Source: an uncultured Clostridia bacterium | GTDB lineage: Bacteria > Bacillota > Clostridia > Saccharofermentanales > Saccharofermentanaceae | Direction of reading: 5' to 3' | Assembly: GCA_946405115.1 (NCBI GenBank) | Contig: CAMJGB010000011.1 | Coordinates: 1-18,229 of the forward strand | Length of the DNA stretch: 18,229 bases | Shown here: in pieces, positions 5,036-7,893 of the stretch | Numbering within the stretch: the first letter of the stretch is position 1 | Layout of the letters: every line of letters starts with the position of its first letter | Notes under the pieces: model-generated | The model's database searches: none | Told to the model about the DNA's origin: nothing | What the model saw: the letters and a program-made list of their open reading frames with translations, nothing else | Program-made: the position numbers and the translations under genes

Positions 5036-5452
5036 ATGATAGAGAAGATCAAGTCGTTGATCATAAAGTATAAGGACATAATCCTTTACGGAATATTCGG
5101 TGTATTAACAACGGTAATTAATATCGCTGCTTATGCCGTTTGCTATAAGGTTCTCGGAATTGCTAATATCCCGAGTGACATCATCGCATGGATAATCGCC
5201 GTTCTGTTCGCATTCATTACGAACAAGCTTTATGTATTTAACAGTAAGGATATGACGATGAAGACGTTCATGCCTGAACTTATTAAGTTCATGGCAGCTC
5301 GTCTTGCTACACTTGGAGTTGATCTTATCATCATGTATATAGGTGTAGATGTAATGCACGGACCGGAGATTATTTTTAAGGTCGCAGCTAATGTTATAGT
5401 TATTATCCTTAACTACGTATTAAGTAAGCTCGTAGTCTTTAAGAAGAAATAA
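5036..5452 (+). CDS. GtrA-family small membrane protein
   Basis: A 138-residue protein with four predicted transmembrane helices, the typical size and shape of the GtrA family (PF04138). Recognisable parts are YGIFGVLTTVINIAAY in the first helix, the FAFITNKLYVFNSK segment between helices two and three, and the closing NYVLSKLVVFKKK, which mirrors the earlier NKLYVF as in most GtrA proteins. Members are thought to move polyprenyl-phosphate-linked sugars across the membrane, or to be subunits that assist glycosyltransferases. It starts 9 bases after the DUF2142 stop, so the two are surely in one transcript and probably one pathway, with GtrA presenting a lipid-linked sugar to the DUF2142 protein outside. 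That link is inferred from position. Confidence 0.9.
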   Translation: MIEKIKSLIIKYKDIILYGIFGVLTTVINIAAYAVCYKVLGIANIPSDIIAWIIAVLFAFITNKLYVFNSKDMTMKTFMPELIKFMAARLATLGVDLIIMYIGVDVMHGPEIIFKVAANVIVIILNYVLSKLVVFKKK

Positions 5453-5508: not shown

Positions 5509-5537
5509 TTGGTTCATTTACTTGTCTTTGGGACAAT
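5509..5537 (+). promoter_or_regulatory. Possible weak promoter with inverted repeat upstream of the peptide gene
   Basis: TTGGTT (5509-5514) and GACAAT (5532-5537) are separated by 17 bases and would start transcription about 35 bases before the peptide start. Each box is only a partial match. A perfect inverted repeat, TTGTC-TTTGG-GACAA (5522-5536), overlaps the -10 box, and TTTGG recurs at 5537-5541-level spacing just after it. This could be an operator, or chance. I see no terminator between the GtrA stop and this point, so read-through from the upstream operon is an alternative source of transcript. Confidence 0.25.
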
Positions 5538-5578
5538 TTGGTCAGTAAACAAAAACACCCAATGAGGAGGAAATGAAA

Positions 5579-5737
5579 ATGAAGGAATTAAAAGAGATTA
5601 AGATCGAGAACCTTGAGAAGGTAAGCGGCGGCCTTAATAGTCCGTCAGATACACGAGTCCCGGATCGTCACACCAACGGCAGAAGGAGGAGTGATAGAAA
5701 ACCTTCACCGGTCGTCGGAATCTATACAAACTGGTAA
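5579..5737 (+). CDS. Small secreted peptide precursor with double-glycine leader (bacteriocin or RiPP-like)
   Basis: A 52-codon gene. The leader MKELKEIKIENLEKVSGG has the features of double-glycine leaders: a short amphipathic helix, acidic and hydrophobic residues alternating (ELKEI, IENLEKV), and SGG at 16-18. Such leaders are cut after the second glycine by C39-peptidase ABC exporters (PCAT). The predicted core, residues 19-52, is LNSPSDTRVPDRH, a basic centre with RRR at 35-37 and RK at 40-41, then PSPVVGIYTNW at the end. It has no cysteine, four prolines, a net charge near +4 and an aromatic C-terminus. AGGAGG at 5565-5570 lies 8 bases from ATG5579, an ideal spacing; ATG5573 in the same frame is only 2 bases away and less likely. 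The core uses CGA, CGT, AGG, CCG and GTC, codons less common in the neighbours. A terminator follows. No exporter or modifying enzyme is in the window. I recognise the leader class, not the core. Confidence 0.8.
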   Translation: MKELKEIKIENLEKVSGGLNSPSDTRVPDRHTNGRRRSDRKPSPVVGIYTNW

Positions 5738-5741
5738 CTTG

Positions 5742-5770
5742 AAGAGCCCCTTGTCAGGGGTTCTTTTATT
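5742..5770 (+). terminator. Rho-independent terminator of the peptide gene
   Basis: AAGAGCCCC (5742-5750) and GGGGTTCTT (5757-5765) pair with one G-U wobble around the loop TTGTCA, followed by TTATT. It begins 4 bases after the peptide stop codon. On the other strand the hairpin has no T tract after it, so it mainly serves the + strand transcript, although it overlaps the ispD stop codon and may also protect that mRNA end. Confidence 0.8.
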
Positions 5771-6509
5771 GCATGTTTCTTAAAAGAGCTTCAGCGATCG
5801 CGATGTCTTCGGGCGTCGTGATCTTTATGTTTGAATAAGAGCCTTCTACGATCCTAACCTTATATCCATAGTGTTCTGCAAGAGCTGTATCATCTGTAGC
5901 TTCATATCCGTCTTCCTTAGCTCTCCTGTAGCATTCTTCAAGAATGCTGTACTTAAAGCACTGCGGGGTCTGAACTTCATAAAGAAGATTCCTATTAGGT
6001 GTGGATTCAACCATTACACCTTGAGATATGTCTTCCTTTACCATCTTGATCGTATTCTTAGTCTTAACACCGGATACGCATACATTGGTCTCATCTTCAT
6101 TGATTGCTTCGAAGCATCTTGATATGGAGTCCTTATCAATGAGGCATCTTGCTGCATCGTGAATGAATACTGCATCATCATTCGCAGGATTAAAAGCTTT
6201 AAGAGCTGATACTCCGTTTCCGACTGACTTTGTTCTTGTGTCTCCGCCTTCAACTATGGAAGAGATCATCGATGCATAATCCTTATCCTTAACGTAAGAA
6301 TCCCACTCATCAGTTTTGCCGGGAGATACTACCAGAACGCATGATAGATCTATTCCTGATTCATCGGAATATTGCTTGAAAGCTTCAATGGTTCTGTCGA
6401 TTACTGTTACTCCGTTAACTTCCATCAGAAGTTTATTCTTATCTGACTTCATTCTTGTACCCGAACCTGCTGCGGGAAATATAACATAAAGCTTACGAGA
6501 AAAGGACAT
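5766..6509 (-). CDS. ispD: 2-C-methyl-D-erythritol 4-phosphate cytidylyltransferase
   Basis: A 247-residue IspD, which transfers CMP from CTP to MEP in the third step of the MEP isoprenoid pathway, in the cytoplasm. The nucleotide-binding start FPAAGSGTRMKSDKNK carries the glycine-rich loop, arginine and lysine of the active site. GGDTRTKSVGNG, IHDAARCLI, and EVQTPQCF are in the expected order, and the NIKITTPEDIAIAEALL tail is typical. I chose ATG at 6509 because GGAGG (6516-6520) is 6 bases upstream; an earlier in-frame ATG at 6533 lacks this and would add MIMYRRQQ. The start overlaps the end of radA by 17 bases, so the two are translated from one mRNA. Its pathway partner ispF is in the opposite-strand operon at 2003. 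Confidence 0.95.
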   Translation of the reverse strand: MSFSRKLYVIFPAAGSGTRMKSDKNKLLMEVNGVTVIDRTIEAFKQYSDESGIDLSCVLVVSPGKTDEWDSYVKDKDYASMISSIVEGGDTRTKSVGNGVSALKAFNPANDDAVFIHDAARCLIDKDSISRCFEAINEDETNVCVSGVKTKNTIKMVKEDISQGVMVESTPNRNLLYEVQTPQCFKYSILEECYRRAKEDGYEATDDTALAEHYGYKVRIVEGSYSNIKITTPEDIAIAEALLRNMQ

Positions 6510-7893
6510 CTGTTGCCTCCGATACATTATCAAGGAAGAAGAATTCCGTCTTGCCGTTATCCTTCACTGCATTCTTGCAGCTTGAGGGGAGAACGACGTG
6601 CTTGATCCCGAGTCTTACCGCCTCGTCCAGACGAAGATTAAGCGAGGATACGGGACGAAGTTCACCTGTAAGTCCGACCTCGCCCAAGACCATCGTGTCA
6701 GGCTTGAGAGGGATGCCTCTTGCAGATGATACTACTGCTGCTATGAGTGCGAGGTCACATGCGGGATCGGTGATTCGAAGTCCGCCTATGACGTTGATGA
6801 ATACATCCTTAGTATTAAGGTTAAGCTTGAACTGCTGCTCGGCAACTGCGAGGAGCATTGCCGTTCTTGAACGGTCAGGTCCTGATGTCATTCTCTGGGG
6901 AGTACCGTAGCAGGTATCTGCAGCAAGTGCCTGGATCTCGATGGTAAGCGCACGAGCACCCTCCATCGCAGATGTAATTGCTGAACCCGGTGCCTCAAGA
7001 GGACGGCCTGTGATCATGAGAGCACTGCTGCTGTCAACGGGTCTTAATCCCTGCTGAGTCATCTCGAAGAATGCAAGCTCTCCAGATCTTCCGAATCTGT
7101 TCTTAACCGATCTTAGGATTCTGTATGCACCTGTGCTGTCACCTTCGAAGTAAAGAACGGTATCTACCATGTGCTCGAGAGTCTTCGGACCTGCGATCGC
7201 ACCGTCCTTCGTGACATGTCCTACGAGTATGATGGGAAGTCCGTTGCTCTTCGCAATCCTGATAAGTCCTGCCGTAACTTCACGTGCCTGGGAAACACTT
7301 CCGGGAGTGCCGTTAACTGACTCTGAATAAAGTGTCTGTATGGAATCTATGATGCAAAGTGCGGGCTTCGTCTTGGACAGTTCTTCTGCTATGAGTTCGA
7401 AGCATGTCTGTGCGCATATGATGATGCGGTCGCCGCTGACTGAGAGTCGGTCCGCTCTCATCTTGATCTGTGCGGGTGATTCCTCACCTGATACATAGAG
7501 GATATCGCCTTCGCACTTGAATGAATTCGCAAGCTGAAGGAGGATGGTGGATTTACCGATACCGGGTTCTCCTCCGAGGAGTGTTACGGAACCGTCAGTG
7601 ATTCCGCCTCCGAAGAGTGTATCGAGCTGATCGATGCCGGTGGAAAGTCTGATGTAATCTTCCTTGCCTGCTTCAGTGAGCCTTACGGTCTCACGTCTGT
7701 CTGTCCATGAATAAGATGATGCCTTGAATGCGGGGGAGTCGCTCTTCGAATTGGAAGAGGACTTACCGGAGCCTGTTACGGTAGTGGATTCAACGAGCGT
7801 ATTAAAGCTGCCGCATCCGGGGCACTTGCCCATCCATCCGGTAGTCTCATATCCGCATTCCTTGCAGAAAAATGTAACGTTCTTTTTTGCCAT
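6493..7893 (-). CDS. radA: DNA repair protein RadA
   Basis: A 466-residue RadA (Sms), the usual length. RadA is a RecA-like hexameric motor that helps branch migration in recombinational repair. The C4 zinc finger is C10, C13, C24 and C27 (CKECGYETTGWMGKCPGC). Walker A GGEPGIGKST is at 107-116, the Walker B segment ALCIIDSIQTL at about 178-188, and the RadA-specific KNRFG motif at 264-268. The C-terminal Lon-like domain includes the QALAADTCYGTPQRMTSG region and GEVGLTGELRPV. The start fits the family (MAKK...) but there is no Shine-Dalgarno sequence before it; a promoter -10 box ends 6 bases upstream. It precedes ispD with a 17-base overlap and follows dapL after an 87-base gap. Confidence 0.97.
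   Translation of the reverse strand: MAKKNVTFFCKECGYETTGWMGKCPGCGSFNTLVESTTVTGSGKSSSNSKSDSPAFKASSYSWTDRRETVRLTEAGKEDYIRLSTGIDQLDTLFGGGITDGSVTLLGGEPGIGKSTILLQLANSFKCEGDILYVSGEESPAQIKMRADRLSVSGDRIIICAQTCFELIAEELSKTKPALCIIDSIQTLYSESVNGTPGSVSQAREVTAGLIRIAKSNGLPIILVGHVTKDGAIAGPKTLEHMVDTVLYFEGDSTGAYRILRSVKNRFGRSGELAFFEMTQQGLRPVDSSSALMITGRPLEAPGSAITSAMEGARALTIEIQALAADTCYGTPQRMTSGPDRSRTAMLLAVAEQQFKLNLNTKDVFINVIGGLRITDPACDLALIAAVVSSARGIPLKPDTMVLGEVGLTGELRPVSSLNLRLDEAVRLGIKHVVLPSSCKNAVKDNGKTEFFFLDNVSEATDVLFS

Follow-up and report, generated by a model that had tools for sequence, protein, structure and literature searches.

In pneumococcus, BriC, VP1 and CSP are double-glycine peptides of peptidase-containing ABC transporters (PMC7595303, PMC7018657). 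The first of these papers adds that several such peptides are encoded apart from two-component systems, that their receptors are unknown and that their alleles are thought to be pherotypes (PMC7595303). A second described system, the NHLP/N11P export system (TIGR03794, TIGR03796 and TIGR03797), has substrates with a Gly-Gly cleavage motif at the end of the leader (PMC2887384). Here we describe a double-glycine peptide gene in a window of 18,229 nucleotides, the whole stretch of DNA analysed, which is contig C11 of an uncultured Clostridia bacterium (genome G000; 1,850,551 bases in 243 contigs, 84.55% complete).

Like the pneumococcal peptides, the window precursor is short, ends its leader in GG with hydrophobic residues at -4, -7, -12 and -15, and occurs in multiple alleles. 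It differs from them in that no sequence relation between the cores was found, in that its family has the C-terminal seven residues fixed and the middle variable, and in that no exporter was found in its own assembly. The NHLP/N11P system is represented in the genus, which encodes TIGR03796 and TIGR03797, but unlike the propeptides of that system (TIGR03793, TIGR03798) the window peptide has an 18-residue leader that is neither nitrile-hydratase nor Nif11. With class II bacteriocins (PF10439) the family shares a double-glycine leader and a weak match in 7 of its 15 aligned members (best E 8e-4), whereas the window sequence is unmatched, lacks the class motifs and has no adjacent immunity gene. 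The ComC/BlpC pheromone model (PF03047) matched 3 of the 15 members (best E 0.014) but not the window sequence, and no histidine kinase or response regulator was recognised by Pfam among the 13 larger window proteins. Unlike lanthipeptides, the window core has no cysteine. The small unnamed family is new, while double-glycine peptides as a kind are already known; what sets this otherwise ordinary family apart is how unusually fixed its tail is.

The peptide gene and its signals

The gene occupies positions 5579 to 5737 of the forward strand and encodes 52 residues. A Shine-Dalgarno site, GAGGAGG (5564 to 5570, same strand), precedes the ATG at 5579 by 8 nt, and an in-frame ATG at 5573 could also serve as the start. 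Residues 1 to 18 (5579 to 5632, forward) form the leader, which ends in LEKVSGG and places V15, L12, I7 and L4 at positions -4, -7, -12 and -15 of the scissile bond. Cleavage after Gly18 would release the predicted mature peptide, residues 19 to 52 (5633 to 5734, forward), a basic core of 34 residues that begins at L19, contains an RRR cluster, four prolines and no cysteine, and ends VVGIYTNW. Exact translation bears out the initial annotation on the frame, the ribosome site, the leader and this core, as well as on the absence of YGNGV, GxxxG and cysteine. An AlphaFold model has a mean pLDDT of 57, and its sole helix covers residues 9 to 16.

The gene's own terminator, also proposed at the outset, holds up as a hairpin at 5741 to 5766 (forward strand) with an 11-bp stem, a folding energy of -16.3 kcal/mol (z -3.4) and UUUUAUU behind the loop side; an equally good fold arose in 1 of 200 shuffles. 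Upstream lies a promoter-like element, TTGGTT-17-GACAAT (5509 to 5537, forward), which has a counterpart, TTGGTT-17-GATAAT, in a second gene-bearing genome, G012. Alignment of 126 bp upstream of the window gene with 124 bp of G012 gave 89 identical positions and a score of 117, against 70.5 or less in 500 shuffles. This conservation contrasts with a synonymous difference of 0.78 between the two gtrA genes. The element was absent from the output of a simple consensus promoter scan, so that we treat it as a conserved element and not as a proven promoter.

The reading frame is under constraint. Over 44 codons compared with the copy in a third genome, G030, dN/dS is 0.39 in the coding frame (dS 0.45, dN 0.17) and 1.1 and 1.8 in the other two frames. 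Together with 14 homologous protein clusters, this agrees with the expectation that relatives would keep the frame. The gene is real; a chance open reading frame is ruled out by homologs, synteny and frame-specific constraint. Its best explanation is a stand-alone transcription unit that is probably expressed. The list of open reading frames has no other of at least 40 amino acids starting in the gap between gtrA and ispD, and hence no adjacent immunity gene. The suggestion that the gene was too short for gene calling and had probably been missed does not stand, because the protein database already contains predicted relatives, 51 to 88 residues long, among them P0002, which is 98% identical to the window peptide.

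A small family with a fixed tail

The window peptide matched no Pfam and no NCBIfam family at E up to 10. A single-sequence search found two relatives, and a profile of five sequences recovered 14 related protein clusters with 95 member sequences (cluster sources labelled ena, lgn or ncbi). A profile of fifteen returned the same 14 clusters plus one match at E 3, among 7997 candidates sharing most words. M1, K2, S16, R26, R35, V46, I48, Y49, T50, N51 and W52 are invariant in the 15-sequence alignment, so that IYTNW closes 15 of 15 sequences; in the window this conserved end, VGIYTNW, is encoded at 5714 to 5734 (forward). Two groups can be told apart. The window peptide and P0002 to P0010 (group A) combine GG with VGIYTNW; P0011 to P0015 (group B) end in VRIYTNW, with GG in P0014 and P0015, GS in P0013 and SV in P0011 and P0012. 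Altogether the leader ends in GG in 12 of 15 sequences, in GS once and in SV twice. Leader and tail are conserved and the middle varies: averaged over positions, the commonest residue has a share of 0.90 in the leader, 0.75 at residues 19 to 26, 0.69 at 27 to 45 and 1.00 in the last seven (nine group A rows, without the near-duplicate P0002).

When the DNA pattern for VxIYTNW followed by a stop was sought in species genomes, it occurred at 23 loci, two of which encode relatives: L116, which is the G030 gene, and L125 in RUG029 (presumably a rumen genome), whose peptide is identical to that of G012. The other 21 loci were unrelated frames. In the literature searched, the motif IYTNW appeared in no paper, and neither did double-glycine peptides together with Saccharofermentans, or double-glycine together with NHLM and nitrile hydratase.

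Locus and distribution in the genus

Among 85 genomes of the genus the gene is present in three, the window genome, G030 and G012, each time between gtrA and ispD. The left anchor in the window is gtrA (5036 to 5452, forward; PF04138, E 2.4e-24), and the right anchor is the convergent ispD (5766 to 6533, reverse; TIGR00453, 205 bits against a cut-off of 181). From stop to stop the gap measures 313 bp in G000, 420 bp in G030 and 317 bp in G012; in G104, G089, G073, G065 and G071 it measures 6, 39, -26, -4 and 5 bp, respectively. No ispD was seen in the fetched stretches of G014 and G067. In G030 the gtrA stop is followed at once by a frame that begins part-way through the leader, with no upstream element, no ribosome site and no ATG, GTG or TTG before the GG. 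The G012 copy has SV instead of GG and keeps the upstream element.

Among the other window proteins, Pfam scans recognised two aminotransferases, an AMP-binding enzyme, a ParA/NUBPL NTPase, a thioredoxin-like protein, a KaiC/Lon-type ATPase (which we take to be RadA), YgbB (IspF), DUF2142 and DUF885, and left two proteins unmatched. The neighbours named by Pfam include no receptor or regulator gene.

A viral origin was considered and rejected, as none of 35 pattern-matched stretches in viral contigs was confirmed at E up to 1e-3. A phage or plasmid origin was likewise set aside, with no match in either at E up to 1 in collections from which records near the window's own genome may have been excluded. 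At synonymous sites the peptide gene differs from its G030 copy by 0.34, less than any of 347 stretches of 44 codons from gtrA and ispD (minimum 0.47, mean 0.73). We do not claim recent horizontal transfer, because of the shortness of the gene and because a similarly low value (0.13) occurs in the last 12 ispD codons of G065, a genome without the peptide gene. An eight-taxon tree of gtrA and ispD, with supports of 25 to 91, is too weak for placing gains and losses.

Leader type and a possible exporter in trans

Positions -4, -7, -12 and -15 are those recognised by peptidase-containing ABC transporters (PMC7018657), and the window leader, hydrophobic at all four, fits them at the level of sequence. 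An exporter of this kind exists in the genus. TIGR03796 was found (E up to 1e-150) in 31 of 85 genomes, in 24 of them above the curated cut-off; in G030, a TIGR03796 protein of 725 residues and a TIGR03797 protein both score above cut-off. On an exporter contig of G030 (L038) we also observed a 146-residue HlyD-like partner of the NHLP exporter (6292 to 6732), which aligns with positions 1 to 52 of the 421 of TIGR03794 below cut-off, and two short double-glycine genes (251 to 421 and 442 to 594); the product of the former has a 34-residue core that ends GIWVR and is comparable in size to the window core.

The family profile also matches leaders of other cargoes, with hits in 35 of 85 genomes at E up to 1. 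By hand reading, 29 of these 35 carry a leader-to-GG match outside the peptide family, and some of the genes concerned read with ribosome sites. Counted without G000, 22 of 31 genomes with the exporter and 7 of 53 others have such hand-picked leader-like genes (Fisher p 1.1e-7). The same holds among the 46 better genomes, those with a completeness of 90% or more and a contamination of 5% or less (11 of 17 with the exporter, 3 of 29 without; p 2e-4); since the genomes are related, both p values are optimistic. In G102, a double-glycine leader precedes a LysM domain (L041, 5132 to 5383; PF01476, 44 bits, above cut-off), which suggests that wall-binding proteins, too, leave the cell by way of such leaders. 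A cysteine-rich, zinc-ribbon-like small protein follows such a leader in G027 (L013, 1489 to 1719; Pfam below cut-off), and in G015 two consecutive genes (L097, 1501 to 1894) have a near-identical 14-residue leader (KELNKVSGG) before different cores.

As the initial annotation had it, no exporter lies among the neighbours: Pfam and NCBIfam scans found none in the window proteins. The word orphan was too strong, given the many genes of the genus with this leader type and at least one more in the window's own genome. That gene, L075 (contig C68, 1371 to 1550, minus strand), encodes 59 residues with a double-glycine leader and a cysteine-rich, weakly zinc-ribbon-like protein (Pfam below cut-off). 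Of the two things for which the rest of the genome had been thought worth searching, another leader gene was found, but a C39 exporter was not. Searches of the assembly, 84.55% complete, gave neither a C39 match (PF03412) nor TIGR03796 at E up to 1e-150, and the best TIGR03797 score, 258.5 bits, fell short of the cut-off of 709.4. The G012 genome, 99% complete, gave no exporter in C39, TIGR03796 or TIGR03797 searches. With no exporter found in these two and the G030 gene deprived of its 5' end, intact gene and exporter were seen together in none of the three genomes that carry the gene. Among nine relatives with gtrA identity of at least 69%, seven have exporter genes, namely G104, G089, G030, G073, G065 and G071 (TIGR03796) and G014 (by C39, with TIGR03797 just under cut-off); none was found in G012 or in G067, which is 84% complete. 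For the window genome it is about equally likely that the exporter was missed in the assembly and that it is absent. The presence of L075 argues mildly for an exporter in the genome, and we consider it probably encoded elsewhere.

Discussion

The gene, the family, its conserved ends, the leader type and the exporter family in the genus can be regarded as established on sequence grounds. The explanation that we favour, and think rather probable, is a double-glycine peptide exported in trans, with a fixed C-terminal tail through which it would act extracellularly. The stand-alone unit would make the 52-residue precursor, whose 18-residue leader would be bound by an NHLP-type peptidase-containing ABC transporter encoded elsewhere (in the genus, TIGR03796 with its partner TIGR03797) and cut after Gly18. 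The exported product would be an unmodified, linear, basic and probably unstructured peptide of 34 residues, with VxIYTNW as its receptor- or target-binding end and a variable middle that may set specificity. We count in its support the homologs, the invariant tail, the frame constraint, the upstream element and terminator, the leader positions, the exporter of the genus and its co-occurrence with such leaders, L075 and the lack of an adjacent immunity gene. Counted against it are the missing exporter in its own assembly, the failure of intact gene and exporter to occur together, the loss of GG in G012, P0011 and P0012, the lack of a receptor or regulator neighbour, and the patchy distribution of the gene. 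A role as cell-to-cell signal is weakly favoured over killing, because the cassette is a single gene without an adjacent immunity gene and its fixed tail stands behind a variable hydrophilic middle.

A killing peptide is less likely: the product might be a narrow-spectrum, unmodified, class II-like bacteriocin, exported in the same way, with a tail that binds a target on competitors. The basic core would suit this, as would the patchy presence and the variable middle, both common in bacteriocins; the weak PF10439 matches of family members, presumably due to the leader, also speak for it. It is made less probable by the window sequence, which matches no Pfam or NCBIfam model and carries neither class motif, and by the lack of an adjacent immunity gene in the gap. 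We find it doubtful that the gene is instead a decaying remnant in an exporter-less lineage, in which leader and core no longer work together. Decay would account for the missing exporter in G000 and G012, for the altered GG of G012, P0011 and P0012, and for the truncated 5' end in G030, but the window copy is intact, from its upstream element and ribosome site through GG to the terminator, and across the family GG or, in a thirteenth sequence, GS is retained with an invariant tail. Least likely, in our estimate distinctly improbable, is a peptide that acts without C39 export, whether it works intracellularly, leaves by a different exporter or has its tail modified at Tyr, Trp or Asn. P0011, P0012 and G012 do keep the tail without GG, and G012 also keeps the upstream element; these forms are, however, little different from the GG forms P0014 and P0015, so that the loss of GG looks recent. 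The modified-RiPP option of the initial annotation gained no positive support, as Pfam recognised no RiPP maturase among the 13 larger window proteins.

Returning to export in trans, one could further imagine a pherotyped pheromone family, a picture that we offer tentatively and consider on balance unlikely. The one-gene cassette would come and go as a whole between gtrA and ispD, its leader and VxIYTNW tail fixed while the middle diversifies; an NHLP-type exporter would be shared by many unlinked double-glycine cargoes, and where it is lost the Gly-Gly would decay.

The locus adds a peptide family whose window sequence no Pfam or NCBIfam model recognises, and its fixed tail lends itself directly to testing with synthetic peptides. 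The locus further points to a broader pattern in the genus, in which many small proteins, LysM and zinc-ribbon-like ones included, carry one leader type. These small leader-bearing proteins probably share an exporter that is encoded away from them.
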